From: a virus
IMG/VR virus record: IMGVR_UViG_3300028024_000010
Coordinates: 1 to 59,268 of that record
Reading direction: 5' to 3' (one strand)
DNA: 59,268 nt
The position numbers were made by a program, and so were the translations under genes. Positions 9,681 through 57,572 of this stretch are shown piece by piece (position 1 is the stretch's first letter; the number at the start of each line of letters is the position of its first letter). Under the pieces are notes generated by a model. The model did not search any database and was not told the DNA's origin. It was given only the letters and a program-made list of their open reading frames with translations.

Positions 9681-10343
9681 ATGGCCGACAAACTGCCCAA
9701 GCCGAAGAGCAAGAAGTCCGCGTCAAGCGACGCACCGGCATCGCCGGAGAAGGCAACTGCCAAGGTCACGGCCTCGGCGCAGCCGCCGGCGCCGAACGCG
9801 CTGACCGACAAGCAGACGAAGGATTTCGCCGTGAAGGCGGTCAGGCTCGAGAAGGCCTATCAGGAGACACGCGAGCGCTGCACCGGCGAGATCTCGAGCG
9901 CGCAGGGTCTCTACCGGGCACATCTGAAGGACTTCAAGAAGCAGGGCGGCAATCCCGATATCCTGACCAAGTTCATCGCTCTGGCGAAACGCGATCCCGA
10001 GGAAGTCGCCCGCGAGACCCGCCAGCTCAATCAGCTCGCCAAGCTGATGGAACTGCCGCTCTTCGCGCATCTCGGCGTCATGGATGATGGCCGCACCACC
10101 GCCACGGCGATCGAGGACGACAAGGGCGACCCGCTCGCCAGGCTCGAGGCCGAAGGCTATGCCTCCGGTAAGGCCGGCAAGACGATGTCGGAATGTAAGT
10201 TCGCCGAGGAGACACCGGAGCATGATGCCTGGCTCAAGGGCTGGAAGAAGGCCTTGGGCGAGAATGCCGGCGTCAAGGCTCTGCCGGCCGGCCGGGCCAA
10301 GGCGAATGGCAAGCACGGTGCGACGGGAGCGACGGCGCACTGA
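9681..10343 (+). CDS. GapR-like protein with RMF-like C-terminus
   Basis: 220 residues behind GAGGAG. Residues 1-40 are a Lys/Ala/Ser/Pro-rich tail. Residues 50-140 (AYRLEK-type helices, then FIALAKRDPEEVARETRQLNQLA) resemble the GapR/DUF2312 coiled-coil domain that clamps overtwisted DNA in alphaproteobacteria. Residues 155-200 (EAEGYASGKAGK, then DAWLKGWKKA) look like ribosome modulation factor, a short stress protein. The combination is unusual. It sits at the head of the replication operon, which suits a DNA-topology or nucleoid role. Similarity is by eye and the GapR part is only moderate. Confidence 0.6.
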   Translation: MADKLPKPKSKKSASSDAPASPEKATAKVTASAQPPAPNALTDKQTKDFAVKAVRLEKAYQETRERCTGEISSAQGLYRAHLKDFKKQGGNPDILTKFIALAKRDPEEVARETRQLNQLAKLMELPLFAHLGVMDDGRTTATAIEDDKGDPLARLEAEGYASGKAGKTMSECKFAEETPEHDAWLKGWKKALGENAGVKALPAGRAKANGKHGATGATAH

Positions 10344-24080: not shown

Positions 24081-25367
24081 ATGGCCAAGAAGCGAGCTGA
24101 GCTGGAAGCCAAGCGCATCCAGCTCTCCGATCGCATGAACGCGATCGCCGAGATGCCGGCGGCTGAAATGACGCCGGAAGTCCAGAAGGAGTTTGATACC
24201 GCGGAGAAGGATATTGAGGCGCTCGATACCGAAATCTCCAATCTTGACCGCGCCTTCCGCGCCAGCGCTGCCAAGGCGAAACCGGTCGGTGGCGGCGCTC
24301 AGCCGGCTACCGTGCCGGCCAAGGCCAAGGGCGAGGACTATCCGGTCGGCCGGTATGTGAAGTCGCTCTATGCCGGCCATGGCAATATGTTCCAGGCGGC
24401 AGAGCATGCCCAGCGCACTTATGGTGATGACGATATCGTCACCAAGGCGCTGAGCACGGCAGTCGCGGCTGACGGCGGCGCGCTGGTGCCGGAAGACTTC
24501 GCCGACCAGGTGATCGAGCTGCTGCGCCCGGCGACCGTCGTCCGTTCCAGCGGCCCCGTCGTCGTGCCGATGCCGCGCGGCACCATGCGCATGGCCCGCC
24601 AGACCTCTGGCGTCGCCGGCAGCTACGGTTCCGAGGGCGGCGCGCTCTCGGCCGAGCAGATGAAGGTCGATGATATCGTCGCGACCTTCAAGAAGCTGCG
24701 CGTCCTGACCCCGATCAGCAACGATCTGCTGCGTTATGCTTCGCCGCAGACCGATCGCATGGTCCAGCAGGACATCGTCCTCGGCCTGGCCCGCACGGAA
24801 GATTTTGCCTTCCTGCGCGGCGACGGTACTCAGGACTATCCGACCGGCCTGAAAACCATCGCTACCCGTGCCGCCAACAGCTTCGCGAGTAACGGCACGC
24901 CGACGCTGGATACCGTTTCGGCTGAGCTCAATAATGCCATCCTGAAGCTCCAGCAGGCCAATATTCCGATGTTGAGCCCGGCTTGGTTCTTCAATCCGCG
25001 CACGGAGCTCTATCTCAAGAACCTGAAGAATGCGAACGGGTTCTACGTCTACAAAGACGAGATGAGCGAGAGCAAGACCTTGCTCGGCTATTCGTTCAAA
25101 TCGACGACCGCGATCCCGGCCAACCTCGGCGGCGGCGGCGACGAATCGGAGGTTTATTTCTCCGATATGTCGCAGCTGATGATCTTCGATTCTCTCGCCC
25201 TCGGTCTCGCGATGTCGACTGACGCCACCTACACGGCGTCGGACGGTTCGCAGCGTAACGCCTTCGAGCGCGACGAGACGCTGATCCGCGGTATCGCCGA
25301 GCATGATTTCCACGCCCGGCATGATACCGCCGCCGCCTTGATCACCGCCGTCAAGTGGAAGTTCTAA
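24081..25367 (+). CDS. major capsid protein, HK97 fold
   Basis: 428 residues. Residues 1-75 form a coiled-coil delta domain (KRIQLSDRMNAIAEMP, then DTAEKDIEALDTEISNLDRAF), which the protease would remove. The mature part starts near residue 100, with the landmark VAADGGALVPEDFADQVIELLR, and ends in DFHARHDTAAALITAVKWKF, which is typical for HK97-fold shells. It has a separate leader with GAAGGAG before the ATG and the shared 16-base element. It is followed by a GC hairpin, in keeping with a highly expressed message. Confidence 0.95.
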   Translation: MAKKRAELEAKRIQLSDRMNAIAEMPAAEMTPEVQKEFDTAEKDIEALDTEISNLDRAFRASAAKAKPVGGGAQPATVPAKAKGEDYPVGRYVKSLYAGHGNMFQAAEHAQRTYGDDDIVTKALSTAVAADGGALVPEDFADQVIELLRPATVVRSSGPVVVPMPRGTMRMARQTSGVAGSYGSEGGALSAEQMKVDDIVATFKKLRVLTPISNDLLRYASPQTDRMVQQDIVLGLARTEDFAFLRGDGTQDYPTGLKTIATRAANSFASNGTPTLDTVSAELNNAILKLQQANIPMLSPAWFFNPRTELYLKNLKNANGFYVYKDEMSESKTLLGYSFKSTTAIPANLGGGGDESEVYFSDMSQLMIFDSLALGLAMSTDATYTASDGSQRNAFERDETLIRGIAEHDFHARHDTAAALITAVKWKF

Positions 25368-25423
25368 CCGTCAGCTAACCGGCTGGGCGGCGAGACCCGC
25401 CCATCCGAACAGAGGAGATTACT

Positions 25424-25894
25424 ATGCAGCGGATTCTCGCTACCGATCCGGGCAGCGTGCTGAAGGCGGTCATCGCCAGCACGATCCAGGATGTCACCGC
25501 CGGCGCCACGCCGGATAATCACAACGTCACCGGGCTTGCCATCGACCGGGAAGCCATGCGCATGCCGCCCGCGGCTGTGCTGACGATCCTGTTCGAGGCG
25601 GTCCTCGCTGCGGCGAAGACCCTCAGCATCAAGAGCGTCTCGATCCAGCACAGTGATGATGGGGCGACCAATTGGGCGACCTATCTGACGCTGACCGATC
25701 CCGGTGTCGTCGCCACCGGCCAGAGCGGCGGCTCGACCGAGCGCGGGCAGGTGCAGAACAGCGTCAATCTGTCCGGTGCGAAGCGCTGGGTGCGCGCGAT
25801 GTTCACGCCGGACCTGTCGGCGACCAATACCGACACCTGCGAAGTGGTGAGCGAGCTCATCTTCACCGGCTTCGACACGATCCCGCACGTCTAA
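25424..25894 (+). CDS. probable head decoration or minor virion protein
   Basis: 156 residues, beta-rich and low in charge (LSIKSVSIQHSDDGATNWATYL, then RWVRAMFTPDLSA), with its own GAGGAG site. Location directly after the capsid gene and a composition rich in Thr/Ala/Val suggest a shell-binding protein. Similar proteins appear in this place in other HK97-like phages; no family name is certain. Confidence 0.65.
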   Translation: MQRILATDPGSVLKAVIASTIQDVTAGATPDNHNVTGLAIDREAMRMPPAAVLTILFEAVLAAAKTLSIKSVSIQHSDDGATNWATYLTLTDPGVVATGQSGGSTERGQVQNSVNLSGAKRWVRAMFTPDLSATNTDTCEVVSELIFTGFDTIPHV

Positions 25895-25911
25895 GCGCTG
25901 CGGTGAGCCTG

Positions 25912-25934
25912 GCCGGCGCCATCCCGGCGCCGGC
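25912..25934 (+). other. perfect 9-bp hairpin after the decoration gene
   Basis: GCCGGCGCC, ATCCC, GGCGCCGGC. No T-run follows, so it probably protects the 3' end of the abundant capsid message or weakens read-through rather than ending transcription. Confidence 0.6.
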
Positions 25935-25955
25935 GCCTTCCTTCGGAGTTTCCTC

Positions 25956-26120
25956 ATGGTTGTCGAGTTCCAGAAGACCGTTACCCCCTATGTGAAGGGC
26001 GACGTTGCGGAGATCCGTGACGATGCCGCCAAAGGCCTGATTGAAAGGGGTGCGGCGAAAAGCTATCAGACCCGCGATGCGCGTCCCGCCGAGAACCGGC
26101 AGCGTCAGGCCGGTCAGTAA
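25956..26120 (+). CDS. small hypothetical virion-region protein
   Basis: 54 residues (MVVEFQKTVTPYVKGDVAEI, then DDAAKGLIERGAAKSYQ). The wording resembles short FluMu-gp41/HI1506-like proteins found between capsid and connector genes. GGAG lies 8 bases before the ATG. Function unknown. Confidence 0.65.
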   Translation: MVVEFQKTVTPYVKGDVAEIRDDAAKGLIERGAAKSYQTRDARPAENRQRQAGQ

Positions 26121-26131
26121 GGCCCAGAACG

Positions 26132-26803
26132 ATGCGGGTCGTCAGCACGGTCCTGACGCCAGCCGGCAGCGCCGCGCTGACGACCTGGTCGGATGTCCAG
26201 CTTGAACTCGGCTTGGCCGACGCGGCTCAGGCATGGACGGAGAAGGCCATCACGCGGGTGAGCGCCATTATCGCCCAATATTGCAACCGCGTTTTCGGAT
26301 TGCGCACTGTCCAGGATGAATTCCTCGCCGATTTCCAGCCCTTCGACTGGCAATACCCCGATGCGCGAGAAGAGCTCCGGCTTTCGTCGTTTCCGGTTCT
26401 GTCAACCATATCAGTGACGCTGGACGGCGATGACATTGCGGAAGGCGTCGATTATCGCCTCGACAAGACGAACGGCAAGCTGCTGCGCCTCGATGTCGCC
26501 GGCGATGTCAGTAAATGGGCCGCTCGGCCGGTGATCGCCGTCTATGAAGCCGGTTTTATCCTGCCGACCGATAGCGGATATATCGCCGGCGACGCCTCAG
26601 CCCTGCCGGCCGATATCCAGGACGCGGCGATTTCGCTGGTGAGGGCCCGGCACTTCGCCCGCAAGCGTGATCCGCTGCTGAAATCCGAGGACGTGCCGGA
26701 TGTCGGCGCAGCGCAATATTGGATCGGCTCGGTCGGCGACAAGCAGATGCCGAGCGACATCGCTGCCATTCTGGACAATTACCGGGTCGGCGTCGTCGCA
26801 TGA
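26132..26803 (+). CDS. head-tail connector protein, gp6-like
   Basis: 223 residues. N-terminal helical part (TTWSDVQLELGLADAAQAWTEKAITRVSAII) followed by a beta insertion (LRLSSFPVLSTISVTL) and a late helix (LPADIQDAAISLVRARHFARKRDPLL). This is the pattern of HK97 gp6-type adaptor proteins that bind the portal. Coupled by ATGA to the next gene. Confidence 0.85.
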   Translation: MRVVSTVLTPAGSAALTTWSDVQLELGLADAAQAWTEKAITRVSAIIAQYCNRVFGLRTVQDEFLADFQPFDWQYPDAREELRLSSFPVLSTISVTLDGDDIAEGVDYRLDKTNGKLLRLDVAGDVSKWAARPVIAVYEAGFILPTDSGYIAGDASALPADIQDAAISLVRARHFARKRDPLLKSEDVPDVGAAQYWIGSVGDKQMPSDIAAILDNYRVGVVA

Positions 26804-27171
26804 GTCCCGAAGAAGCGATCAGCATGCTGGATCGGCAGCTGGCTAATAATGGCAAGACCGTCACGGTCAAGAAACGGATCGATGGCAGCCTGACGAATCT
26901 CGAGCAGTACACTTGCAAGACCATGCACCGGACCTGGACCAAGGGGCGCGGTAGCGATGAGCTGGCCGGTGGTGTCCAGCAGCAATATGTTCTCGTCGTT
27001 TTCTCGCCAACCGATATCCCGGCAGGTTTCGGCACGGCTGCCGGCGGCCAGCAATGGCCCGATGTTGGCGACATCATTAGCGCCGATGGGCGCGACCGGG
27101 AAATAAAGGCCAGCAACCCTATCAAAATGGATGACGTCCTGGTCAGGATCAATTGTCAGCTGGTCGGCTGA
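26800..27171 (+). CDS. head-tail joining protein
   Basis: 123 residues from ATG 26800 (MSPEEAISMLDRQL). Mostly beta: KTVTVKKRIDGSL, QQQYVLVVFSPTDIPAGF, and DIISADGRDREIKASNP. It sits where HK97 and SPP1 encode the stopper protein. Fold assignment is by position and pattern only. It is the last gene before the sugar-modification island. Confidence 0.7.
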   Translation: MSPEEAISMLDRQLANNGKTVTVKKRIDGSLTNLEQYTCKTMHRTWTKGRGSDELAGGVQQQYVLVVFSPTDIPAGFGTAAGGQQWPDVGDIISADGRDREIKASNPIKMDDVLVRINCQLVG

Positions 27172-27173
27172 CG

Positions 27174-27830
27174 ATGATCCATTCGACGGCGAAATGGTCC
27201 GGCTCGGTCGCTCGGCCCGAGCTGGCTTGGCGGGCCGACCCGATCTGGGCCGGTGAGACGGTGATCTGCATCGCCTCCGGCGCCAGCCTGACGCAGGCGG
27301 ATGTCGATCTCTGCCGCGGCCGCAGAGTGGTCGCCGTCAATGACTGCTGGCGCCTGGCACCCTGGGCGGACTGCCTGTTTGCCGCTGACGCTTCCTGGTG
27401 GCAGGCAAAGGGTCCGAAGCCGGAGGAATTCGTCGGCATGCGGGTGACGACGGACCGGACGAACCCGGCCGGCTGCAAAGTAATGCTCTGGAACCGGATG
27501 ACGGGATTGGCTGCCGATCGGCGCTATCTCTGCACCGGTGCCAATTCCGGTTACTCGGCCGTCAATCTGGCGGTCCACCTGAACAATGGCGCCGCACCGA
27601 TCGTGCTGCTCGGTTACGACATGACCGGCGCGCACTTCTTCGGCCGGCACCCGGAGCCGCTCCGCAATCCCGAAGAGTCGCATTTCCGGCAGTGGCGCGA
27701 GAACTTCGCAACGCTGGCCGAAGCCGCGGCCAGGCGGGACCGGCCGATCAAGATCATCAACGCGACGCGGGCCACGGCTTTGACGTGCTTTCCCCGCATG
27801 AGTTTGGAGCAAGCGCTTGCCCTATCCTGA
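27174..27830 (+). CDS. GT42/DUF115-like Rossmann protein, sugar-modification island
   Basis: 218 residues. Begins a Rossmann-like fold with ETVICIASGASLTQADVD, then VVAVNDCWRLAPWADCLFAAD, and later TGANSGYSAVNLAVHLNNGAAPIVLLGYDM. The ASG-SL and NSG patches recall DUF115 proteins and CST-type sialyltransferases (GT42), which bind nucleotide sugars. A related protein is encoded at 29614-30210. First gene of a six-gene block inserted between two connector genes. The substrate is unknown; glycosylation of a virion protein or of the host surface is possible. Confidence 0.65.
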   Translation: MIHSTAKWSGSVARPELAWRADPIWAGETVICIASGASLTQADVDLCRGRRVVAVNDCWRLAPWADCLFAADASWWQAKGPKPEEFVGMRVTTDRTNPAGCKVMLWNRMTGLAADRRYLCTGANSGYSAVNLAVHLNNGAAPIVLLGYDMTGAHFFGRHPEPLRNPEESHFRQWRENFATLAEAAARRDRPIKIINATRATALTCFPRMSLEQALALS

Positions 27831-29001
27831 CGTGATCGGCGAATTCGAGACGATCGAGGCCTGCAAGTCGCGCTCGATCGCCCGTTATGGAGACGGTGAG
27901 TTCAATCTGGCGATCGGCCGCAAATGTGTCAGTCAGGAGGCAGATGACCGGCTCGCCGCCGAACTGCGCGCGATCCTGGCGCAGCCGACGTCCTGTATGG
28001 TTGGGATCCCGAACATCGCGCAAAGCCCCCGGGCGATCTCCTGGCAGAAATATGCCGACGGCCCGGCCGGCAGGCTGCTCGGTAAGGGTCCGTTCTATTC
28101 GAGCTTCATCACCCGGCCAGACAATGCGCCGCATATCGACACGCTGGCCTATTGGGATGCCATCTGGTCGCTCTGGCGCGGCAAAGACGTCACCCTCGTG
28201 CTCGGCGACCGCCGGTCGCTACGCCCGGAGATGCTCGAAGAGACCGGCAAGCTGACCGTGATCGAGGATCTGCGGCCGGTGACCGAGGGCGGCTGGACCA
28301 AGCATGCCTATCGGCATGTCGACGAGATCGAGGAGCGGATCGGGACGCCGGCCGGCACCGTGATCATGTGCCTCGGCGCTACCGCGACGGTCCTCGCCGA
28401 GCGGCTGGCGCGCAAGGGCGTCCATGCGCTCGATCTTGGCCACGTCGGCATGTTCGCGCGGCACGCTGGCATCTACCGTTACAGTCAGGATGACCTCTGT
28501 TCGCCGGCTTACCGGCAGACGCTCGCTCTGGTCCGAAAGAACGTGAAGGGCTGGGGCGGCGATGGCGGCAAGCATGCCGATGAAGCGCGGCGCCTGGCGG
28601 ACGAGTTCGAGGCGGCGACCATCCTGGACTATGGATGCGGTACCGGCAAACTGGCCGAAGCAATGGCGCCGCGCCGCGTCATGCAATACGACGCCGGCAT
28701 CGAGGGCAAGAATGGCATGCCGAAGCCGGTCGATCTGGTCGTCTGCACCGATGTCCTTGAACACGTCGAGCCGGAAAAACTGGATGCGGTGCTCGATCAT
28801 CTGTTCCGGCTCGCCGGCAAGGCGCTCTATGTCGTCATCTCGACCCGGCCGGCGCGGACGATCCTGCCGGATGGCCGCAACGCCCATCTTTTGGTGAAGC
28901 CGGCCGATTGGTGGCATGCCAAGTTCCAGGAGCAGGGCTGGAAGGGCGCCTATCGCCGCGAAGGCGATGACAAGGAAGCCCGGTTCTGGTTCCGGAAATG
29001 A
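27817..29001 (+). CDS. GT-D glycosyltransferase fused to SAM methyltransferase
   Basis: 394 residues in two domains. Residues 1-240 match the GT-D fold glycosyltransferase pattern: SRSIARYGDGEFNLAIG, MVGIPNIAQ, DVTLVLGDRR, GTVIMCLGATATVLAERL. Residues 265-394 are a class I methyltransferase: TILDYGCGTGKLAEAM (SAM loop), DLVVCTDVLEHVEPEKLDAVL, and a short tail. A single enzyme could add and methylate a sugar. It overlaps the gene before by 14 bases and the next by 4. Both domain calls are by eye; the GT-D call is the weaker of the two. Confidence 0.8.
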   Translation: MPYPDVIGEFETIEACKSRSIARYGDGEFNLAIGRKCVSQEADDRLAAELRAILAQPTSCMVGIPNIAQSPRAISWQKYADGPAGRLLGKGPFYSSFITRPDNAPHIDTLAYWDAIWSLWRGKDVTLVLGDRRSLRPEMLEETGKLTVIEDLRPVTEGGWTKHAYRHVDEIEERIGTPAGTVIMCLGATATVLAERLARKGVHALDLGHVGMFARHAGIYRYSQDDLCSPAYRQTLALVRKNVKGWGGDGGKHADEARRLADEFEAATILDYGCGTGKLAEAMAPRRVMQYDAGIEGKNGMPKPVDLVVCTDVLEHVEPEKLDAVLDHLFRLAGKALYVVISTRPARTILPDGRNAHLLVKPADWWHAKFQEQGWKGAYRREGDDKEARFWFRK

Positions 29002-29621
29002 TCAGCCGCGCCGACTGGACCCCGCAGGTCAGCGACGAAGCCTTCGCTTTCCTGGCGATCCAACGCGGCCGGCTGAACGACATCGTCGGCAATCGGGCGG
29101 CTTGGCTGGAAGCCTATAAGACATCGCTGTTCGACTGGTACGAGACCGCGTTGCCCTACCTGCCGGAAGCCTGCGGCGCGATCTGCGATATCGGCGGTGG
29201 GATGGGCGGTATAGATGCGCTGCTGAGCCTGCATTACGGCGGCACCGATGTTTTCGTCCTGGACGGCGTCGCCGATCAGCCGATTTTCGCGCAGACCATA
29301 CGGCCGTTCAATGACATGCGGGTGACGGCCCGTTTTCTGGCGGCGAATGGCATCGAGACCTTCGGCTATTTCCCGCCGGCTTCGCGTTCGACCGAGACCA
29401 AGTTCGACCTGATCCTCAGCTGCCAGGCTTGGTGCTTTCATCTGCCGCCGGCGGCCTATGCCGAATTCGCCCTCGATGGCTGGAAGAATGGTACGCGCAT
29501 GATCGTCGATCTCCGGCGTGGCCGCACCGACTGGCGCGAAGAGCTCGAGGCGGATTTCGGCCGGGCCGAGGTCATCCATCAGGATCGCAAGTTCGAAAGG
29601 CTCGTTTTCGGGCATGCCTGA
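28998..29621 (+). CDS. SAM-dependent methyltransferase-like protein
   Basis: 207 residues. SAM-binding loop CDIGGGMGGIDALLSLHYG at about 60-80, acidic turn VFVLDGVAD, and a late motif KFDLILSCQAWCFHLPPAAY, in the order of class I methyltransferases. It probably methylates a sugar or another small group in the product of the island. Coupled by ATGA to the fusion gene. Confidence 0.75.
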   Translation: MISRADWTPQVSDEAFAFLAIQRGRLNDIVGNRAAWLEAYKTSLFDWYETALPYLPEACGAICDIGGGMGGIDALLSLHYGGTDVFVLDGVADQPIFAQTIRPFNDMRVTARFLAANGIETFGYFPPASRSTETKFDLILSCQAWCFHLPPAAYAEFALDGWKNGTRMIVDLRRGRTDWREELEADFGRAEVIHQDRKFERLVFGHA

Positions 29622-30210
29622 CCAGATCACGGTCCTGGCAGGCGGCTGGTCGGCGGGCCTGCTGGACCTGACGCAGCTGCCGGGTCTGGTGATCGGGGTC
29701 AATGACAGCGCCATCCATGCGCACTGCGATCATGTCGTCTCAATGGACCGGCTTTGGACCGAGCATCGCGCCGCGCATCTGGCGTTCTGCAACATGCCGG
29801 CGCATATCCGCGCCGCGGCGCTGAAGAATGTGAAGCCCTGGCCGTCGCTGAAGCCTTTCGAATGTGATCATAGATCGGCGGTCTTCTCGGACGAGCCCGG
29901 CATCTTGAATGGGACGAATTCCGGGCTCTGCGCCTTCAATCTCGCCTACCAGATGCGACCGAAACGGATCTTCCTGATCGGCTTCGACATGCAGAAGGGC
30001 CCTAACGGGGCAGGGCACTGGTTTCCAGATTATCCGTGGGCACCTGGCGGCGCGACCAAACAGGGGAAATACAATGCTTGGGCAATGGAATTCCATTGCG
30101 CCGGCGGTAAATGCCACGCGGCCGGGATCGAGGTCATCAATGTGGGTGAGCGGTCGCTGATCGACGCTTTCCCGAAGATCAACAGCAAGGATTTCGGTCG
30201 TTACCGATGA
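29614..30210 (+). CDS. second GT42/DUF115-like protein
   Basis: 198 residues from ATG 29614 (MPDQITVLAGGWSAG). Shares the layout of 27174-27830: start of a Rossmann fold, LVIGVNDSAIHA, then NGTNSGLCAFNLAYQMRPKRIFLIGFDM. Likely a paralogue with a different acceptor or donor. 8-base overlap with the methyltransferase gene. Confidence 0.65.
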   Translation: MPDQITVLAGGWSAGLLDLTQLPGLVIGVNDSAIHAHCDHVVSMDRLWTEHRAAHLAFCNMPAHIRAAALKNVKPWPSLKPFECDHRSAVFSDEPGILNGTNSGLCAFNLAYQMRPKRIFLIGFDMQKGPNGAGHWFPDYPWAPGGATKQGKYNAWAMEFHCAGGKCHAAGIEVINVGERSLIDAFPKINSKDFGRYR

Positions 30211-30902
30211 GAGATGTGACCCTCTGTTTAAGCTTCTACATCAACAATTCTATGCTGGCAGAGCAATACCGCCAGCTCCGCGCGCTGCCGGCTGATCTGA
30301 AAACGCATCTTCGCCTGATCGTTGTCGATGACTGCTCGCCAGATCCAGCCTGGGCCGAGGATCTCGGCTTGCCGATGCGTCTCTATCGGATGCAGAAGGA
30401 TATCGCCTGGAACCAGGATGCCTGTCGCAACTTGGCGGTCAAGGAAGCCGAGACCGACTGGGTCCTGATGACGGATATGGACCACATCGTCCCAGAACAG
30501 ACATGGCGCCGCGTCATTACCGGTAGCCTCGACCCGAACACCGCCTTTCGGTTTGCCCGCGTCTCGATGCCGAAACGGGACGCATACAAGCCGCATCCGA
30601 ACAGCTGGCTGATGACGACAGCGGTCTTCGAGAAGGCCGGCGGCTATGATGAGCGGTTCGCCGGCTATTACGGCACCGATGGCGACTTCGTCGGCCGATT
30701 GAGTGCGCAGGCGCCGATCGAGCAGCTGAAGGAGCATATCATCCGCTACCCGCGCGAGGTGATCCCGGATGCCTCGACAACGACGCTGATCAGGAAGTCG
30801 GAAGAGAACGGCGAGGCGATCAAACGGATCAAGGCCGAGCGTAAGCTGGAAACCGATGGCCGCCCCAAGCGCTATCAGACGCCCTGGGAGCGCATCGCCT
30901 GA
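30207..30902 (+). CDS. family 2-like glycosyltransferase
   Basis: 231 residues with the GT-A pattern of GT2 enzymes: VTLCLSFYINNSMLAEQYRQL at the start, LIVVDDCSPD at about 45, and a DxD metal-binding site in VLMTDMDHIVPE at about 92. It has no membrane segment, so it acts in the cytoplasm on a soluble acceptor such as a virion protein. ATGA overlap with the preceding gene. Confidence 0.82.
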   Translation: MRDVTLCLSFYINNSMLAEQYRQLRALPADLKTHLRLIVVDDCSPDPAWAEDLGLPMRLYRMQKDIAWNQDACRNLAVKEAETDWVLMTDMDHIVPEQTWRRVITGSLDPNTAFRFARVSMPKRDAYKPHPNSWLMTTAVFEKAGGYDERFAGYYGTDGDFVGRLSAQAPIEQLKEHIIRYPREVIPDASTTTLIRKSEENGEAIKRIKAERKLETDGRPKRYQTPWERIA

Positions 30903-30904
30903 TC

Positions 30905-31612
30905 ATGCTGTCGATCGTCTGTTTTAAATGGAAACCGAAGGGCGCCTATCGGTCGATCTTCGGTGCCCAAACCGTCAATATCCTGAAGCGGATGGTCGAC
31001 CGGCATTATGCCAACCCGCACCGCGTGATTTGCGTTACCGATGACGCTCGCGATATCGATCCGGATATCGAGATCATGCCGCTCTGGGACGATCACGCGA
31101 ACGTGCCGTCGCCGCATGGTGCCGGCAATCCGAGCTGCTACCGCCGCTTGAAGGCCTACAGCAAGGAGGCGTCCGACTGGTTCGGTCCGCGCTTTGTCAT
31201 TCTGGATCTGGACTGCGTCATCGTGCGCGACATGGTGCCGGTCTGGGACACGCCGGCGGATTTCTGCATCTGGGGCGATACCAATCCGATGAGCCCCTAT
31301 AACGGCTCCATGCAGCTGATGAATACCGGAGCCCGGTCGCAGGTCTGGGAAACCTTCGACCCGGTCGAGAGCCCGAAGCGGTCGAAGGCGATGGGATATT
31401 TCGGGTCGGATCAGGGTTGGATCGCCGCCTGCCTCGGCCCGAACGAGAACAGATGGTCGACCGTCAACGGCGTCTATTCGTATCGCAACCATATCGCCCG
31501 CGCCGCCGGCAAGCTGCCGCCAAACGCGCGGATCGTCTTTTTTCACGGTCAAACGGACCCCTGGCATCCCCAGGCGCAGGCGTTAGACTGGGTCAAGGAG
31601 CATTACCGCTGA
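30905..31612 (+). CDS. family 8-like glycosyltransferase
   Basis: 235 residues. Starts MLSIVCFKWKPKGAY; HRVICVTDDARDI and FVILDLDCVIVRDM supply the acidic D-x-D metal site of GT8/glycogenin-like enzymes; GSDQGWIAACLG is a typical late motif. Last gene of the island. Its stop overlaps the start of the following connector gene (TGATG), which ties the island into the morphogenesis operon. Confidence 0.8.
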   Translation: MLSIVCFKWKPKGAYRSIFGAQTVNILKRMVDRHYANPHRVICVTDDARDIDPDIEIMPLWDDHANVPSPHGAGNPSCYRRLKAYSKEASDWFGPRFVILDLDCVIVRDMVPVWDTPADFCIWGDTNPMSPYNGSMQLMNTGARSQVWETFDPVESPKRSKAMGYFGSDQGWIAACLGPNENRWSTVNGVYSYRNHIARAAGKLPPNARIVFFHGQTDPWHPQAQALDWVKEHYR

Positions 31613-32319
31613 TGGCCGAGGATTTCAGCCGCATCGTCGATCTCGGCGCCGAGCTGCAGCGCGACCTTGCGCAATTGCTACCGCAGGAAGTCCAGCAACT
31701 GCATGTCGCTTATGCCAAAGAGGTGAAGGCCGCGGAAATGTCTGCCGGCGGTTTCCGGCCGACCGAGGTGCAGACCATTGTCGACGGCCGGTCGCCGGCG
31801 GCCGAGGAACAGGTGCGGCCCTTCGGCATCATCGCTTATCGCTTCGGCTCGATTGTCGATGTGGCTTTCGAAGTGCGCGACCTGCTGATCAGGGAATCGC
31901 CGAAGGGCGAAACCGGCCTCTATTCGCAGAGCTGGTTCGCGATCGTCAACGGCGAGCCGGTTGCCTGGGAAGCGCTGGAGCAGACATGGAAGCCGGGCCA
32001 AGAGATCTGGATCAGCAACGACCAGCCGTATTCTCGCATCCTTGAAGTCGGCGCTGACCCCAATGGGCCGCTGCGGGTCTTCAAGGTGCCGAACCACACG
32101 ACGCAGAAGATCCTGCCGGAAGCCCGCAGCCGGTTCGGCAATCTCGTGCGCATCAACGACACCTTCATCGACCTGCATGGTCCGGGAACAGGCAAAGCCA
32201 AGCCAAGCCGGACGCATGGCAGCTCGGTCCCCTGGATCCTGCAGAATTCGCAGGGTCGCAAGGGCCGGCTGGCCGGCGATCCGATCAACTATCCTGCCGT
32301 GGTGATCACGCCGCTATGA
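31612..32319 (+). CDS. neck/tail-completion protein, HK97 gp10-like position
   Basis: 235 residues. N-terminal helix (RIVDLGAELQRDLAQLLPQEVQQLHVAY) followed by a beta-rich domain (QEIWISNDQPYSRILEVG). The helix plus the YSRILE(V/N) patch is usual for head-tail joining proteins of the HK97 gp10 group. The location between the island and the tail terminator supports this. Confidence 0.68.
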   Translation: MAEDFSRIVDLGAELQRDLAQLLPQEVQQLHVAYAKEVKAAEMSAGGFRPTEVQTIVDGRSPAAEEQVRPFGIIAYRFGSIVDVAFEVRDLLIRESPKGETGLYSQSWFAIVNGEPVAWEALEQTWKPGQEIWISNDQPYSRILEVGADPNGPLRVFKVPNHTTQKILPEARSRFGNLVRINDTFIDLHGPGTGKAKPSRTHGSSVPWILQNSQGRKGRLAGDPINYPAVVITPL

Positions 32320-32747
32320 ATATCATCGAAGCCCGCCAGGCCGTGAAGCAATACGTCACGGATCATTGGACGACGACGCCGATCGTCTGGCCGAACCCGG
32401 CCCGCCCCGGAAAGGGACCGCCGAAGCAGATATCGGACATCGATCCGCATTGGATCGCCCTCGAAATCCTGGATCTCAGGGCCGATACCGGCCTCGGCGA
32501 GGTTGGAAGCCGTTTCGCGCAGGATGACGGCTTGTTCATCATCAACGCCTTTGCACCGGTGATGACGGATGAGGATCAGCTTTGGAGCATCGCGTTCCAA
32601 TTCAGCGAGATTTTCCGCGCGCTGAAACTCGATGGCTTGCAATTCATGTCACCGCGAATCCAGCCATCCGCCACGCGGTCCAGCGATGACGGCGCCTGGT
32701 ACGCGCTGACCGCGACGGTGCCGTTCATGCTTTTAGGTACCGTCTGA
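32316..32747 (+). CDS. tail terminator protein
   Basis: 143 residues. MNIIEARQAVKQYVTDHW, then ALEILDLRADTGLG and GLFIINAFAPVMTDEDQLWSIAFQFSEIF, the alpha-beta pattern of lambda gpU-like tail-terminator proteins. It caps the tail tube and stops its growth. Followed by a terminator at 32790. Confidence 0.75.
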   Translation: MNIIEARQAVKQYVTDHWTTTPIVWPNPARPGKGPPKQISDIDPHWIALEILDLRADTGLGEVGSRFAQDDGLFIINAFAPVMTDEDQLWSIAFQFSEIFRALKLDGLQFMSPRIQPSATRSSDDGAWYALTATVPFMLLGTV

Positions 32748-32767
32748 CAGACGGTCAGCCCTCATAG

Positions 32768-32783
32768 CCCTTGGGCAAGGCAG
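32768..32783 (+). repeat. 16-base element copy 2, before the major tail gene
   Basis: Same CCCTTGGGCAAGGCAG as 24024-24039. It lies 45 bases before the ATG of the major tail gene and directly before a hairpin, just as in the capsid leader. ATAGCCC occurs just before the core in both copies. Confidence 0.7.
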
Positions 32784-32789
32784 TGATCG

Positions 32790-32813
32790 AGGCGCCTCCA
32801 GGCGCCTTTTTCT
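32790..32813 (+). terminator. hairpin with T-run before the major tail gene
   Basis: AGGCGCC, TCCA, GGCGCCT, then TTTTC. It has the form of an intrinsic terminator, yet it lies between the 16-base element and the tail gene's ribosome site (ATGGAG). If it acts as a terminator, the tail gene would need read-through or a promoter inside the leader. Confidence 0.7.
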
Positions 32814-33311: not shown

Positions 33312-33343
33312 GCCGTCGCAGATCCCTGCGGCGGCATTTTCTT
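33312..33343 (+). terminator. intrinsic terminator after the major tail gene
   Basis: GCCGTCGCAG, ATCC, CTGCGGCGGC, then ATTTTCTTT. Ten pairs with one G-U. Probably partial, so that the tube protein is made in excess over the tail chaperone and tape measure. Confidence 0.8.
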
Positions 33344-46459: not shown

Positions 46460-46819
46460 ATGCTGAAAAGCCTGCTCACTCTCGAAAATCTTTGGAAGGG
46501 CCTCGGCCACATGACGCGCTGGGTCCTGGTACCGCTGATCATGCTGGCCGTCACCATGGCAGGCCTCGTGCTGGTCAGCACCGATCTTCTCAGCCCGCGG
46601 ATGCAAAGCGAAATCGCGTCGCTCTGGTACGTTTTTATCGCCGTCACCGCTTGGTGGCTGATGCGGCGCTGGCTGAACTGGCTCAATGGCGTGAGGTTCA
46701 AAAAAGATGTCGCACCGCTCATTTATCAAAATGCTCTATCTGCTGCTATTCATAGCGTCGGCCAGTCTCTCGCCCTCGCCATCCTCATCAGCAGCGTTCT
46801 CGCCACAGTACGATTCTGA
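46460..46819 (+). CDS. membrane protein, holin candidate 2
   Basis: 119 residues with three hydrophobic helices: WVLVPLIMLAVTMAGLVLV (21-40), SLWYVFIAVTAWWLM (54-69) and SLALAILISSVLATV (103-117). The last third overlaps the transglycosylase gene in another frame. It could be the holin, or an antiholin to the smaller protein. Confidence 0.7.
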   Translation: MLKSLLTLENLWKGLGHMTRWVLVPLIMLAVTMAGLVLVSTDLLSPRMQSEIASLWYVFIAVTAWWLMRRWLNWLNGVRFKKDVAPLIYQNALSAAIHSVGQSLALAILISSVLATVRF

Positions 46820-47300
46820 CATCCGCGGTGCGGTCGCCCAGTTCTGGCCCGAGGGGCCGGATTGGACCTGGTGGAAGGCGCAGCTCTACCAGGAAAGCCG
46901 CCTGGACCCGCAAGCAATGTCTCCGGTGGGCGCGCGGGGGCTGGCGCAGACGATGCCAGCTACATGGGCAGAAATAACCCGCCAGCTACATTGGGGCAAT
47001 GTCAGCCCGCATTCGCCGCGCCATGCGATCTACGGGGGAGCCTATTATATGCGGCGCATGCAGCTGGCCTGGACCTCGAGGCGCACAATCGAGGAACGGC
47101 AGAAGCTGGCCCAGGCGAGCTATAATGCTGGCACCGGCCATATCATCGAGGCGCAGGACGCCTGCCATGGCGCGTTGACATGGGACCGCATATGGCCATG
47201 CCTGGCGCAGGTCACCGGCCAGGAGAACGCTCAGCAGACGATCGACTATGTGACGCGCATCGCCGCCTGGCGCCGGCAGATCCTCAGCACGCCGCACTGA
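46707..47300 (+). CDS. lytic transglycosylase with signal sequence (endolysin)
   Basis: 197 residues. N-terminal signal (FIKMLYLLLFIASASLSPSP), then an SLT domain with the catalytic Glu in LYQESRLDPQAMSPVGARGLAQTM and the conserved ASYNAGTGHII at about 140. It cleaves peptidoglycan at cell lysis. The signal is encoded within the 3' end of the membrane gene 46460-46819 (113-base overlap), so both are coupled. Export by Sec, probably with membrane tethering before release. A start at 46731 (MLYLLLF) is possible too. Confidence 0.85.
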   Translation: MSHRSFIKMLYLLLFIASASLSPSPSSSAAFSPQYDSDIRGAVAQFWPEGPDWTWWKAQLYQESRLDPQAMSPVGARGLAQTMPATWAEITRQLHWGNVSPHSPRHAIYGGAYYMRRMQLAWTSRRTIEERQKLAQASYNAGTGHIIEAQDACHGALTWDRIWPCLAQVTGQENAQQTIDYVTRIAAWRRQILSTPH

Positions 47301-47366: not shown

Positions 47367-48137
47367 ATGGACAGACTGAAGAGCCGTATCGGCCGGCGTT
47401 ACGACTGGACCCCGGACCTGCCGGACCATCGCGACGCGGTCTATCAGGTCAGGCGTCGCCTGGCGCTGCCGCTGAAGGTCGATCTCTCGCCCAAATGCTC
47501 GCCGGTCGAGGACCAGGGCGATCTCGGCAGCTGTACCGCCAATGCGCTGGCTGGCGCGCTCGAATTCCTCGAGGCCGTCGACGGCACGCCATTCAAGGAT
47601 ATCAGCCGGCTCTTCATCTATTACGGCGAGCGGGCGATCGAGCATACGATCAATCAGGATAGCGGCGCGCAGATCCGCGACGGCGTCAAGTTTCTGCATC
47701 AGACCGGCGCCTGCTCGGAAGACCTCTGGCCCTACAACATCACCAAGTTCAAGCAGAGGCCGACAGCGGCCGCCTATGCAGATGCCGCGAAGCGCAAGAT
47801 CACCCTCTATCAGCGCGTCACCGGCATCAACGCACTGCGCGCCTGCCTGGCCTCCGGTTTCCCGGTCGTCTTCGGCTTCACCGTCTATGACGGCTTCGAG
47901 AGCGATGCCATCGCCCGGACCGGCAAGCTGAACCTGCCGAAGCCGACCGAGCGCGTTCTTGGCGGCCATGCCGTGCTGGCGGTCGGCTATGACGATGCCG
48001 CCAGGCGGGTGAAGGTCAGGAACAGCTGGGGCGCCGGCTGGGGCCTGAAGGGCTATTTCACCATGCCCTACGACTATATCGGCAACCCGCAACTGGCCGA
48101 CGACTTCTGGACCATCCGCGCGGGGCAGCAGCTATGA
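47367..48137 (+). CDS. papain-like (C1) cysteine protease
   Basis: 256 residues with all landmarks of the C1 family: oxyanion Gln and catalytic Cys in EDQGDLGSCTANAL at about 48-60, catalytic His in GGHAVLAVGYDD at about 198, and Asn in VRNSWGAGWG at about 215. No signal or prosegment is evident, so it is made active in the cytoplasm or leaves through the holin hole. It lies between endolysin and spanins, an unusual place for such an enzyme. It may free virions from host protein, help lysis, or travel in the particle. Confidence 0.9.
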   Translation: MDRLKSRIGRRYDWTPDLPDHRDAVYQVRRRLALPLKVDLSPKCSPVEDQGDLGSCTANALAGALEFLEAVDGTPFKDISRLFIYYGERAIEHTINQDSGAQIRDGVKFLHQTGACSEDLWPYNITKFKQRPTAAAYADAAKRKITLYQRVTGINALRACLASGFPVVFGFTVYDGFESDAIARTGKLNLPKPTERVLGGHAVLAVGYDDAARRVKVRNSWGAGWGLKGYFTMPYDYIGNPQLADDFWTIRAGQQL

Positions 48138-49204: not shown

Positions 49205-50260
49205 CTGCAGCGCAATTTCGGCCTCGATCTGCTTCGGTGCATCGCGATTATCGGCGTGGTTGCTGTCCATATCGCCGATGGTCGCGCGCTGTATTGCTTC
49301 GCCGCCGTTGTCCCTGTGGATCTGTTTTTCTCACTGAGCGGCTTCCTGATCGCCCAGATGATGGTCGAGCGGTTCGACGGCATCTCGACGCCGGCCGCGT
49401 TCTGGGCTTTCATGGCAAACCGCTGGCTCCGCACGCTCCCGCTCTATTTCCTCGCCCTCAGCACCTATCTTGGCTTCCTCGTCATCCTGGCGCCTCAGCC
49501 CGTCGATATCGCCTCCATTTTCACCAGATACGCGCTCTTCATCCAATACATCCCCTGGTATCATGACAGCGAGGCCTGGCAGTCGACTTTCTTTACCGTG
49601 AGCTGGTCGCTCGCTATCGAGGAATGGTTCTATCTCCTTTGTCCGCTCGTCCTGCTGCTGGCCGGTGCGCGATCACGGCGGTTCTTCATTGGGCTGATTG
49701 GCATCCTTGTCATGACATCGATCACCTATAGACTTGCTGTCTGTCTTGCTGATCCTGCCATGACACAGAGCATCATCTTCAAGTCGACACCGACCCGGGC
49801 TGATGCCTTTGTCTTTGGCATCGGGGCATATTTCACGGTACGGGGTGGCCTAGGCAAGCGGTTGTCGCTGGCCTGCTGCGCGGCTGGGTTGCTACTGGCT
49901 ACGGTCAATGCCTGGATGATTCCTGCCGTGACTTTGGGACTATATACCAAGGCACTGACCCCATCCCTGGCCCCGCTCTCCATGGCGCTGCTGATCCCGG
50001 CCGCCCTGACCCTGAAAGCGCCCCAGGCCATTGCCCGGGCCGCGGCATGGCTCAGCACCCGGACCTATGCGATCTATCTGTTCCATACCCTGGTAATCGC
50101 CTTCGCTTTCCCGCCGGGCCAGCACACGGCATTTCGGCTGCTGGCCTTCGTGGTGGCGACCGGACTGCTGGCGGACTTCCTATATCGCTATGTCGAGCGG
50201 CCGTTCATGCGGTTGCGGCCGGTCCGGGCGCCGTCTGCTATTCCGGCTTTGGCTGAATAG
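49205..50260 (+). CDS. acyltransferase family 3 membrane protein (moron)
   Basis: 351 residues if read from CTG 49205. The family start (RNFGLDLLRCIAIIGVVAVHIADG) directly follows the strong ribosome site, and no ATG or GTG is available before it; the first is GTG 49256, which would remove the first helix. About ten membrane helices follow, with FFSLSGFLIAQMM, SLAIEEWFYLLCPLVLLLAG and a final YRYVERPFM, all typical of OafA/NodX-type O-acetyltransferases. Probably acetylates LPS or another surface sugar in the lysogen and changes phage adsorption. It has its own upstream AT-rich region and faces the regulator gene at 50238. Confidence 0.85.
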   Translation: MQRNFGLDLLRCIAIIGVVAVHIADGRALYCFAAVVPVDLFFSLSGFLIAQMMVERFDGISTPAAFWAFMANRWLRTLPLYFLALSTYLGFLVILAPQPVDIASIFTRYALFIQYIPWYHDSEAWQSTFFTVSWSLAIEEWFYLLCPLVLLLAGARSRRFFIGLIGILVMTSITYRLAVCLADPAMTQSIIFKSTPTRADAFVFGIGAYFTVRGGLGKRLSLACCAAGLLLATVNAWMIPAVTLGLYTKALTPSLAPLSMALLIPAALTLKAPQAIARAAAWLSTRTYAIYLFHTLVIAFAFPPGQHTAFRLLAFVVATGLLADFLYRYVERPFMRLRPVRAPSAIPALAE

Positions 50261-54750: not shown

Positions 54751-54870
54751 TTATCCCTCCATCCTGTCATGTCCCGTCACCGGGTTGAATCGTGGCGTGG
54801 CCTTGGCGGTGGCTCGCAACAGGCGCCAGAGCTGGCAGTAGCGGTGCAACCATGTGAGGATGCGGGTCAT
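54751..54870 (-). CDS. possible 39-residue basic peptide
   Basis: Starts MTRILTWLHRYCQLWRLLRA inside the stop codon of the ATPase gene (ATGA). Strongly basic and amphipathic. The coupling is its main support. Confidence 0.42.
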   Translation of the reverse strand: MTRILTWLHRYCQLWRLLRATAKATPRFNPVTGHDRMEG

Positions 54871-57572
54871 GGGAACAGCCAGTCTGCTGCTTTGACAGTG
54901 CCTCGGCCATTCGGCTCTATCAGGCCATAGGCCGAGACGGCTGACATATAGACCCCGGCCGTGCTGGCAGTCGGCGAAAGACCGACCTTTTCGGCGACTG
55001 CGTCGCGGCGGATGTCCTTCGGCCAAGCCCGATAGATGACCTCGAAAACCCGCTGCTCCTGTGGACCAAGAAGGCCGCGCGCCATCTGATAAAGATCCTC
55101 GCGCGTGGCGGCCGTTGGTGTATTCGCAGCCTTCAAGCCGGCCGGCGTCAGCGCGATCTTGCCTGACGATGTCTCGAGCAATCCGGCTTTGACCAGCTGC
55201 GAGACATAGACGCCGAAAGTCGAGGCCTTCGGGCTATAGCCAGCGACGACGCAGGCGCGGTCACGGGTGGCTGGGTCCTGGCCGATCTTTCGCCACCACG
55301 CCACGGCATCGAGAACACGCTGCTGTGCCACCGCGATACCTTCGGCCTGGCGCGCGGTGGAGCGGACGACGGGATTCGAACCCGCGACATTCGGCTTGGA
55401 AGACTGATGTTCTACCGGCTGAGCTACGTCCGCGGTCTGCTTGACCCTTTCGAGCGGCGCGTTGATGGCGTCAAACAGGTGCTGTGTCTGTGCCAGGATC
55501 TCGTTGATGCATCGCGACGCCTTGCCGCTGATCTCCAGCAGATTGCTGCGCTCCCTGGCCATGCCGGCGGCATACCCCTCCTGATAGGCCTTGGTCCGCA
55601 CCGCAGCCAATTCCTGCTCGCTGGCGTCCTCCTTGCCGGCTTGTTTCTCCAACTCCACGATGCGCCGGCGCAACGCGATCGGATCGTCAGCTTCTGCAGC
55701 TGCCACGGCATCACCAATGAGCGCCCGCAGCTTGGCCGGATCGACTGGAGCCGTTTTGACCTCATGCCGATGATCGTCATCGGTCGGGGTAGCGCTGTTG
55801 TCGTAGGTGCCGATGCGGGGGAACTTGACCAGTTCGACGATATTGGCCTCGCCGGAGATCACCCATCCCTCGCCGGTCTTCAGGCCAGCCAGCGACCGGG
55901 AGACCTTCTCCGCGATGTCCTTGGCGACGTTCCCCTTAAGCCATTCCTTGATCGGCGTCTGATCGGCCGGCAACGTCAGCCGGTGCGCGATCAGCGTTTC
56001 GCAGCTGCCGAGCACGGCGTTATGCAGGGATTGGGTCCGCTGCGTCACCACCACGAGGCGGATGCCCTTGGACCGCCCGGCGGTCGCCAATTTCTTCGCG
56101 AAGTGGATGGTCAGGTTCTCGCCGCCGAAGCCCGCCCGCTCCTTAGGGCAGTTACCAGTCACAAATACCTTTCCATTCCGGCGCGCGACAAACGCGCCAG
56201 TGGGTACAGTCACATCCCAGACCAAGCCATCGTAGTGCTCGCGGGAAGGTTTCCGCACCCAATTCATTCGCCGTTTATTGGCGATATTGACGATCCATTG
56301 GCCACTCGCGGCGGTTTGTTTGGTTGCTGCCAGGCCGAGGCGGATCGCTATCTCCTGAAAATCGTCAGCCAACCCACCATTGTGACCGGGATAAAACCGA
56401 ACCCACTTGCCGTTCAGCGAAGTGCCATCACCCTCGAGCAAACCTTGGAACAGCGCTTCCAACTGATCGCGTGACGCCTGCTCAATGATCCGACGCGGAA
56501 CGCGGTGTAAATCCCCTTCGAGCAACTCAATAAAGCGACGGCTACTCGTCCCGCCAAAATACCAACACACGGACGGGCCTGAACTCACGGTCCTCCCCAT
56601 CGTGGCAGCGGCGCGTTCAGGGCGCTCATAGCGAGACATCCCCTCGATGCCTGCCAGAACGGTATCAATTTCGGAGGCGATAGACCGGCCCACCTTAGTC
56701 GTCGATATCGACTGCGACAGCATTATCCGCGGCTCGACGGTCCGCGCGGAATGGAGATTGCCGTCCGTAATGATCCAGCCAAGTATGCGTGCCTCATCGA
56801 GCGTGAGACCAGCCATTCCCGGTCCAATAGGCGCTCCGCCCACCGGCGTATAGACGTTGGTTGGCACTTTCTCCGCTTGGCAGAATGTCCAATCATATAG
56901 CTTGTAACGCCCGGAGCTTCCGCGTTGGACTCTCCGCAACACCACTCGGTGATCCGGCGTAGAGAGGCTGTCAATTCCGTCGCTCTTGAGCCTTACCATT
57001 TCGCCGCACCACTGGCGGCGAACCACTCGCTCGACCGCACCGTAGAAAAAACGGCCGGTCGCGGTATCAAAACAAACGGCCTCAGCACCGACATCAATAT
57101 CAGCGTGTCGTCTAAAGCCGCTCTTAGTTAGGATCTCAGTGTCTTCTGACAGACAGAACTCGTGCGCCTCCTCGATGACCAGGTAGAGGATGCCGCGCAT
57201 TTTCCGCAGCAGGGCTGGCGCGAATTCCGTGAAGAAGGTCTGCAGCCCGCCCGGCTTGAAATCGGCCATGTCGATGATGGTGAGCGGCAGCTCGCCACCG
57301 GCCACCAGCTCGGCGATCGGCTTACCCGCCGTCTCCTGGATCTGCACATGGCCATGAGGGCCGCCGAGGATCTGGAACGGCAGCCCCGGTCGCTTGCCGT
57401 CGGCGCTGGATATCAGCCCCCACCAGTCGGACTTGATCGGGTCCAGGATGCAGACGCGGGCGCCCTGGGCCACGACATGCTCGACCAGCAGCTTGGCGGT
57501 CGAGGTCTTGCCCGAGCCGGTTTTTCCAACCACGGCGGTGTGCTGGCCGATGATGTCCTTGAAGATCTTCAT
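54867..57572 (-). CDS. HerA-like ATPase with intein and C-terminal HTH domains
   Basis: 901-residue precursor from ATG 57572. Extein 1-139: Walker A GKTGSGKTSTAKLL at 16-29, and Walker B YLVIEEAHEF at 130-139. An intein of 335 residues follows (140-474), then the extein continues CPKERAGFGGENL and RLVVVTQRTQSLHNAV, with the GNVAKDIAEKVSRSLAGLKTGEGWV part usual for HerA/DUF87 proteins. After about residue 640 comes a coiled coil, then 714-738 are read from a tRNA-like sequence, and last two winged-helix-like repeats (ACVVAGYSPKASTFGVYVSQLVKAGLLE and DAVAEKVGLSPTASTAGVYMSAV). HerA proteins pump or remodel DNA; no NurA partner is nearby. Role in this phage is unknown. Confidence 0.88.
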   Translation of the reverse strand: MKIFKDIIGQHTAVVGKTGSGKTSTAKLLVEHVVAQGARVCILDPIKSDWWGLISSADGKRPGLPFQILGGPHGHVQIQETAGKPIAELVAGGELPLTIIDMADFKPGGLQTFFTEFAPALLRKMRGILYLVIEEAHEFCLSEDTEILTKSGFRRHADIDVGAEAVCFDTATGRFFYGAVERVVRRQWCGEMVRLKSDGIDSLSTPDHRVVLRRVQRGSSGRYKLYDWTFCQAEKVPTNVYTPVGGAPIGPGMAGLTLDEARILGWIITDGNLHSARTVEPRIMLSQSISTTKVGRSIASEIDTVLAGIEGMSRYERPERAAATMGRTVSSGPSVCWYFGGTSSRRFIELLEGDLHRVPRRIIEQASRDQLEALFQGLLEGDGTSLNGKWVRFYPGHNGGLADDFQEIAIRLGLAATKQTAASGQWIVNIANKRRMNWVRKPSREHYDGLVWDVTVPTGAFVARRNGKVFVTGNCPKERAGFGGENLTIHFAKKLATAGRSKGIRLVVVTQRTQSLHNAVLGSCETLIAHRLTLPADQTPIKEWLKGNVAKDIAEKVSRSLAGLKTGEGWVISGEANIVELVKFPRIGTYDNSATPTDDDHRHEVKTAPVDPAKLRALIGDAVAAAEADDPIALRRRIVELEKQAGKEDASEQELAAVRTKAYQEGYAAGMARERSNLLEISGKASRCINEILAQTQHLFDAINAPLERVKQTADVAQPVEHQSSKPNVAGSNPVVRSTARQAEGIAVAQQRVLDAVAWWRKIGQDPATRDRACVVAGYSPKASTFGVYVSQLVKAGLLETSSGKIALTPAGLKAANTPTAATREDLYQMARGLLGPQEQRVFEVIYRAWPKDIRRDAVAEKVGLSPTASTAGVYMSAVSAYGLIEPNGRGTVKAADWLFP
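55358..55433 (-). tRNA. tRNA-Gly (UCC)-like gene inside the ATPase reading frame
   Basis: Minus strand: acceptor GCGGACG pairing with CGTCCGC, then T and encoded CCA; D arm GCTC-AGCCGGTA-GAAC; anticodon loop CTTCCAA with UCC; T arm GCGGG-TTCGAAT-CCCGT. Total 76 bases with CCA. One A-C mismatch in the D stem and one in the anticodon stem suggest a partly decayed or atypical molecule. It lies in frame on the same strand as the ATPase gene, whose protein reads ADVAQPVEHQSSKPNVAGSN there, as tRNA genes do when translated. It may be functional or a fossil. Confidence 0.85.
56151..57155 (-). other. intein with LAGLIDADG-type endonuclease in the ATPase gene
   Basis: 335 codons. Begins with Cys (block A: CLSEDTEILTKSGF), block B STPDHRVVL, ends with block F VWDVTVPTGAFVARR and block G NGKVFVTGN followed by Cys of the extein. 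Between them are two dodecapeptide endonuclease motifs, ARILGWIITDGNL and LEALFQGLLEGDGT, with the acidic residues in place. The penultimate residue is Gly rather than the common His. Inserted right after the Walker B motif, in the most conserved site of the host protein. Splicing leaves a 566-residue ATPase. It looks intact. Confidence 0.92.

Follow-up and report, generated by a model that had tools for sequence, protein, structure and literature searches.

To our knowledge, glycosylation of the virion has been proven experimentally for only a few phages. It is known for mycobacteriophages of the cluster O Corndog type and for Che8 (PMC11600133, PMC12363180 and PMC12619734, citing Freeman et al. 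2023), and in cluster O phages three tandem glycosyltransferases and an O-methyltransferase act on the capsid and tail tube (PMC11600133). Enzymes of the Maf, GmaR and Fap1 types glycosylate proteins directly in the cytoplasm with no lipid carrier (PMC7591256, PMC5063993). The window analyzed here, a stretch of 59,268 nucleotides from an IMG/VR virus record, contains a cassette of 6 genes, o1 to o6, with likeness to both. Compared to the mycobacteriophage set, the cassette has 5 glycosyltransferase domains, which by family description belong to other families (2 Maf-like, and one each of GT-D, GT2 and GT8-like); it has 2 methyltransferase domains, it sits inside the connector operon, and the named phages that have relatives of it infect Gram-negative bacteria. 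Maf, GmaR and GalT1 of the Fap1 pathway are related in fold or sequence to o1, to o5 and to the GT-D domain of o2, respectively, but those are cellular enzymes whose substrates are flagellin or serine-rich adhesins and not a phage virion. Virion glycosylation with an O-methyltransferase is already known from the mycobacteriophages, and what is new is a widespread cassette in the connector operon.

Several named phages have part or most of the set. Tetraselmis viridis virus S20/SI1 has o1, an o4-like gene, GT-D, methyltransferase, GT2 (43%) and GT8-like (55.5%) relatives in its head-tail operon, but there the GT-D and the methyltransferase are separate genes, a head-tail adaptor is interleaved, and additional genes are present, including a second methyltransferase. 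S20 and SI1 are tailed phages, though deposited as Tetraselmis viruses. The sequence-only reading knew of no described system with this set, which holds as far as S20/SI1 is concerned, where the set is deposited mainly as hypothetical proteins with no system annotated, but needs amending for the functional analogue described in cluster O mycobacteriophages (PMC11600133). In the literature searched, in which few subscription journals are covered, we found no paper on this 6-gene cassette. The P1 cluster pmgN-O-P-ppp-Q and its P7 counterpart hdmA-D encode homologs of o1 (PmgO/HdmB) and o6 (PmgQ/HdmD), but make up a smaller set that has a phosphatase and lies away from the head-tail operon. Depositor notes for P7 hdmB and hdmD read "head morphogenesis", and P1 pmgO, pmgP and pmgQ were dispensable for laboratory lytic growth in a CRISPRi screen (PMC10695390). 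In Pseudomonas phages D3 and PAJU2, the connector region has an o1 relative and a methyltransferase gene lies just 5' of gp10, but the set is reduced, the GT-D, GT2 and GT8-like genes not being found at that site. In D3, orf7 lies between the major capsid protein (MCP) and adaptor genes and the methyltransferase gene is in the Hc1-gp10 gap, and in PAJU2 both genes are in the same gap as the cassette of the window. The PAJU2 o1 relative is directly 3' of a putative head-tail adaptor and is labeled "structural protein" by its depositors, a label also given to the o1 relative of Klebsiella phage Eowyn.

Layout of the locus and its transcription unit

The cassette consists of 6 intact plus-strand genes at 27174-31612, with a head-closure gene on its 5' side and, on its 3' side, first a neck-like (gp10-like) gene and then the tail terminator (Table 1). 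The open reading frames and the PHROG matches of the flanks confirm the sequence-only reading of a 6-gene island between 2 connector genes. Start-stop overlaps had been claimed for every junction, and the spacings from Hc1 through o1-o6 to the gp10-like gene are +2, −14, −4, −8, −4, +2 and −1 bases; hence coupling is tight throughout, but overlap is not universal, as 2-base gaps are present at Hc1-o1 and o5-o6. The o2 start is TTG, and the aligned site in a sister phage (contig L008) is ATG. On the plus strand no terminator-like site was found from 25086 to 32789, and the nearest is directly before the major tail protein gene, consistent with a prediction that o1-o6 and the connectors form a single message. 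The gp10-like connector has a homolog in EBPR siphovirus 3.

Table 1. Features of the head-tail connector region of the window, with one distant gene discussed in the text
Feature	Position	Strand	Evidence
Head-tail adaptor, upstream connector	26132..26803	+	phrog_442, E 1e-25
Hc1-like head-closure connector, directly 5' of cassette	26800..27171	+	phrog_161, E 0.002 (weak), and position
o1, PmgO-type glycosyltransferase, Maf-like fold; proposed primer	27174..27830	+	phrog_4603, E 1e-45
o2, GT-D glycosyltransferase fused to SAM methyltransferase	27817..29001	+	PF08759, 4e-16; PF13489, 5e-11
o3, predicted class-I SAM methyltransferase	28998..29621	+	motif DVGSGLGG and predicted fold
o4, second Maf/DUF115-like glycosyltransferase, o1 paralog	29614..30210	+	phrog_4603, E 2e-20
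o5, GT2 glycosyltransferase	30207..30902	+	PF10111, 2e-9; PF00535, 4e-7
o6, GT8-like glycosyltransferase, PmgQ/HdmD type	30905..31612	+	phrog_1962, E 8e-16
gp10/neck-like connector, 3' of cassette	31612..32319	+	phrog_16336, 2e-30; phrog_169 neck/completion, 0.05 (weak)
Tail terminator	32316..32747	+	phrog_179, 3e-9
O-antigen-acetylase-like membrane acyltransferase, typical moron position	49256-50260

The sister phage L008 has 82-87% nucleotide identity to the window across the cassette region, and all 6 genes are intact in it, with dN/dS of 0.09-0.15 versus 0.08 for the portal and 0.14 for the MCP. All of o1-o6 are under purifying selection. An additional open reading frame of about 130 amino acids, which matches no PHROG, separates o1 from o2 in L008. 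The G+C content of the 6-gene block is 0.59-0.65, the same as its surroundings, and on this match, together with the purifying selection on all of the genes, we reject the block as recent foreign cargo. Three related phages (L014, L015 and L016), with MCPs 41-64% identical to that of the window, are without the cassette, so the cassette is accessory, and where the junctions of cassette-free relatives are readable the connector genes adjoin the tail genes directly.

The six enzymes

The AlphaFold2 model of o1, with a 44-sequence alignment as input, has a pLDDT of 92.5, and in a Foldseek comparison to the Protein Data Bank (PDB) only 5MU5, a Maf flagellin glycosyltransferase, matches it significantly (E 3.7e-4, prob 1.00, TMq 0.62). 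BLASTP between o1 and o4 has E 4e-6, making them paralogs, and the Maf fold of o4 is assigned via homology to o1 only. Against the Pfam MptE/DUF115 family, o4 scores a sub-threshold 16.2 bits versus the cut-off of 34.6, and the MptE-like search with o1 gave no match, and therefore we refer to o1 and o4 as Maf-like relatives and not as DUF115 members. The database label "alpha-2,3-sialyltransferase" for the o1 family is poorly supported. As to membership in GT42, the CstII profile reached only E 0.3-0.5 with o1 and CstII is absent from the 50 best fold matches listed, and given such weak matches we reject o1 as a GT42 sialyltransferase proper. The enzyme classes of the sequence-only reading are supported, with o1 and o4 as Maf/DUF115-like glycosyltransferases beside the GT-D/methyltransferase fusion, the methyltransferase, the GT2 and the GT8-like enzyme.

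The GT-D domain of o2 scores 59.8 bits against PF08759, for which the curated cut-off is 27, and the second domain is Methyltransf_23. The GT-D profile match in the PDB is to GalT1 of the Fap1 pathway (4PHR, E 1e-12). Residues 26-28 of o2 are an invariant D-G-E, which we take to fit the metal-binding motif of GT-D enzymes. No family match above threshold was found for o3, but its AlphaFold2 model (pLDDT 91.8) has 451 PDB matches at E ≤ 0.001, of which the best are methyltransferases, many of them O-methyltransferases. By motif and predicted fold, o3 is a class-I SAM methyltransferase. Its relatives are present only in viral contigs, with none found in the annotated phage collection.

For o5, both GT2 families are matched above the curated cut-offs, PF10111 at 37.7 versus 27.3 bits and PF00535 at 30.5 versus 23.3, and the best profile match in the PDB is to GmaR at 3e-5. 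We take GmaR to be the Listeria flagellin GlcNAc transferase. A conserved DLDCV motif is found in o6, along with weak profile matches to the Skp1 galactosyltransferase and glycogenin; it falls short of the GT8 curated cut-off and has no Pfam match, and phrog_1962 is its only glycosyltransferase family match. No transmembrane segments are predicted in any of the 6 proteins. By analogy, the nearest structural relatives of o1 (Maf), o2 (GalT1) and o5 (GmaR) support a role in protein glycosylation, and those of o6 (Skp1-GalT and glycogenin) do so weakly.

Distribution and placement among phages

In scans of viral contigs, relatives of o6 turned up in 189 contigs, those of o1 in 231 and those of o2 in 169, and the best 80 of each were read; the o1 scan was seeded with closer sub-alignments, the full o1 alignment being too divergent. 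The exact order o1-GT-D-MT-o3-o4-o5-o6 is found at 23 o2-anchored loci among the best 80 of 169, and since one of these is L008, at least 22 others have it. In those 22 contigs, cassette proteins are 28-64% identical to those of the window, but the terminase large subunit (terL) and portal are 21-35% identical where detectable, and no similarity to the MCP, connectors or tail proteins of the window could be detected. With the cassette more alike than terL, portal and MCP, we conclude that one module has been placed in the same operon in different lineages. The joint of o3 and o4 is no more than 20 bases in all 22 of them (−4 in 18), and the remaining joints are mostly overlaps. An order kept in at least 22 other contigs, combined with intact genes under selection, is more than chance would produce.

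To ask how constant the placement is, redundancy was removed from the best 80 per anchor, giving 143 contigs, 35 of which have at least one head and one tail gene in view; structural genes were recognized by homology to few reference phages, hence the many contigs that could not be typed. In 34 of the 35, the cassette is flanked by head genes on one side and tail genes on the other, all on one strand, and the single exception (L127) is a phiNP-like contig with the cassette genes 5' of the terminase. By position, spacing and this count, the cassette is part of the virion operon, with expression predicted, and as judged from its sequence it would supply phage-encoded glycosyltransferases as a virion modification system does. 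It had been proposed that the enzymes are made together with the virion proteins, and the operon position, the lack of an internal terminator-like site and the retained placement uphold this as a prediction. In S20 and in 7 of the contigs read, connector genes are found in among those of the cassette.

Relatives of cassette genes sited elsewhere are those of the P1 pmg cluster, those after the tail genes in Caulobacter phages, those before the terminase small subunit gene terS in phiNP, and those of XacN1 and RAS14, which adjoin ribonucleotide reductase. XacN1 encodes 2 o1 relatives; its virions have at least 2 glycoproteins, for which the authors implicated other glycosyltransferase genes (PMC5852040). 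Reduced versions among the contigs read have o1 alone, o1 with o6, o1 with a methyltransferase, or o1 with GT-D, o5 and o6. Where sufficient sequence is in view, o1 is present in 17 of 18 o6-anchored contigs and in all 29 o2-anchored contigs, and a graded series with o1 as the common member fits a priming role for o1.

What the cassette may modify

The reading we prefer, and consider probable, is cytoplasmic O-glycosylation and methylation of a virion protein, for which the acceptor is at the level of candidates. In outline, the 6 genes would be expressed late and build a short methylated O-glycan on a protein of the phage virion. The first sugar would be put by o1 directly on Ser/Thr of a subunit of the capsid, connector or tail, either ahead of assembly or in its course, the chain would be extended by the GT-D domain of o2 together with o4, o5 and o6, and methyl caps would be added by the methyltransferase domain of o2 and by o3. 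Because the cassette has no sugar-nucleotide gene, host nucleotide sugars are the proposed donors. Placement in the connector operon would give one message with matched timing of enzyme and substrate, and assembly in the cytoplasm would expose capsid and tail subunits to cytoplasmic enzymes. Identical set, order and site in distantly related phages make decoration of their own particles the most likely purpose. The late-operon position tells timing and not substrate. As to the acceptor, no Ser/Thr-rich stretch was found in the MCP or major tail protein of the window, and among its virion proteins the highest Ser/Thr content is in tail tip and appendage proteins.

The family of a glycosyltransferase leaves its acceptor open, as members of GT42 and GT8 also modify the LPS core. 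Since they do so elsewhere, and since the named hosts of the o1 relatives found are all Gram-negative, LPS core modification could apply here, in the form of a late change to the host surface (the LPS/LOS core or some other glycan of the cell) that would block re-adsorption of progeny to debris or exclude other phages. The GT42 enzyme CstII acts on LOS and o1 has the weak profile match to it noted above, and peripheral cytoplasmic enzymes could modify lipid A-core ahead of its flipping by the host. This phage also has the O-antigen-acetylase-like membrane acyltransferase of Table 1, a separate gene through which it probably does alter the host surface. Set against this reading, the fold search with o1 gives Maf and not CstII, and the matches of o2 and o5 are to protein glycosyltransferases. 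Conversion genes are usually morons outside the virion operon, as is the acyltransferase of this phage. The cassette contains neither the GtrA flippase nor the membrane glycosyltransferase of gtr-type serotype conversion, and a GtrA-type flippase is absent from all 20 records searched, namely S20, D3 and 18 cassette contigs, one of them the window. In 12 of these records no integrase was detected, which weakens lysogenic conversion, subject to the records possibly being incomplete. The window phage itself carries an integrase; an attachment-site search at tRNA-Gly gave a 12-base match, which is at chance level. With these considerations, we regard modification of the host surface as unlikely. 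That flagellin is the substrate of both Maf and GmaR brings up glycosylation and methylation of a host cytoplasmic or surface protein such as flagellin or pilin, acting against superinfection, but this leaves the strict embedding among head and tail genes of unrelated phages without explanation, and we give it a small chance.

Two further explanations are still less probable than those. The connector junctions of related cassette-free phages are clean and D3 holds other accessory genes in the same gap, which would suit unrelated accessory cargo at a hotspot permissive for insertion among the connector genes; the fixed order, tight overlaps and purifying selection across large distances nevertheless indicate one functional pathway, and make cargo very improbable. 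Hypermodification of phage DNA with glycosylated bases to evade restriction, a common role of phage glycosyltransferases in general, is to our judgment the least probable of all. The thymidylate-synthase-type hydroxymethylase PF00303 is absent in 19 of the 20 records, window included, no known base-modification enzyme is among the open reading frames of the window as scanned with Pfam, and the cassette is in the virion operon, away from DNA metabolism. A search for Tet/JBP enzymes of DNA modification left even its controls without a match.

Returning to virion glycosylation, a broader version of it, which we hold at about even chances, is that the cassette is a mobile 6-enzyme pathway of distantly related siphophages, placing a methyl-capped glycan on the virion proteins of phages of Gram-negative bacteria by means of Maf-, GmaR- and GT-D-type transferases such as serve flagella and adhesins, in a series from o1 alone through o1 with o6 to the full set. 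If true, virion glycosylation would be a common strategy, carried out in many environmental phages via a cassette at a fixed site, and there would be a link between phage particles and the enzymology by which flagellin and adhesins are glycosylated. It would also provide a likely role for the PmgO and PmgQ genes of P1 and for orf7 of D3.

Expression and gene content around the virion operon

The coordinates of the features are collected in the table. The major tail protein gene has a strong terminator-like hairpin on each side, the first lying close ahead of its likely start, which suggests that its expression is controlled separately. In the sister phage L008, the sugar-modification cassette (genes o1 to o6) holds an additional ORF that has no counterpart in the window and no PHROG match. 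The cysteine protease and transglycosylase-domain genes lie downstream of the tail genes. The acyltransferase, with seven hydrophobic segments, is encoded outside the virion operon and is likely a lysogenic-conversion gene.

Features of the window and of L008
Feature	Location	Strand	Details
RMF-like domain protein	9681-10343	+	220 aa; ribosome modulation factor-like domain at C-terminus; PF04957, 2e-6
Hairpin	32789-32808	+	just 5' of likely major tail protein gene start
Hairpin	33312-33335	+	just 3' of major tail protein gene
Transglycosylase-domain gene	46707-47300		adjoins cysteine protease gene
Papain-family cysteine protease	47367-48137	+	PF00112, 2e-13
Membrane acyltransferase	49256-50260	+	PF01757, 2e-15; PHROG O-acetyltransferase/O-antigen acetylase
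HerA/DUF87-like ATPase	54867-57605	-	912 aa
tRNA-Gly (tcc)	55358-55433	-	ARAGORN
Additional ORF	L008 10654-11052		~130 aa; sits exactly in the o1-o2 gap

The HerA-like ORF

The tRNA-Gly is enclosed by the frame of the HerA-like ORF, which translates across it as '...VAQPVEHQSSKPNVAGSNPVV...', and a search of the rest of the window yields no attachment-site repeat longer than 12 bases. After the Walker-B region 'EEAHEF' of the ORF comes 'CLSEDTEILTKSGF...', which on visual inspection resembles an intein start; Pfam reports no intein in this ORF at E 0.01.

Host of S20 and SI1

The deposited host of 'Tetraselmis viridis virus' S20 (NC_020840) and SI1 (HQ632858) is a green alga. Because both genomes encode a standard tailed-phage head-tail operon, these viruses presumably infect not the alga but a bacterium present in the culture.
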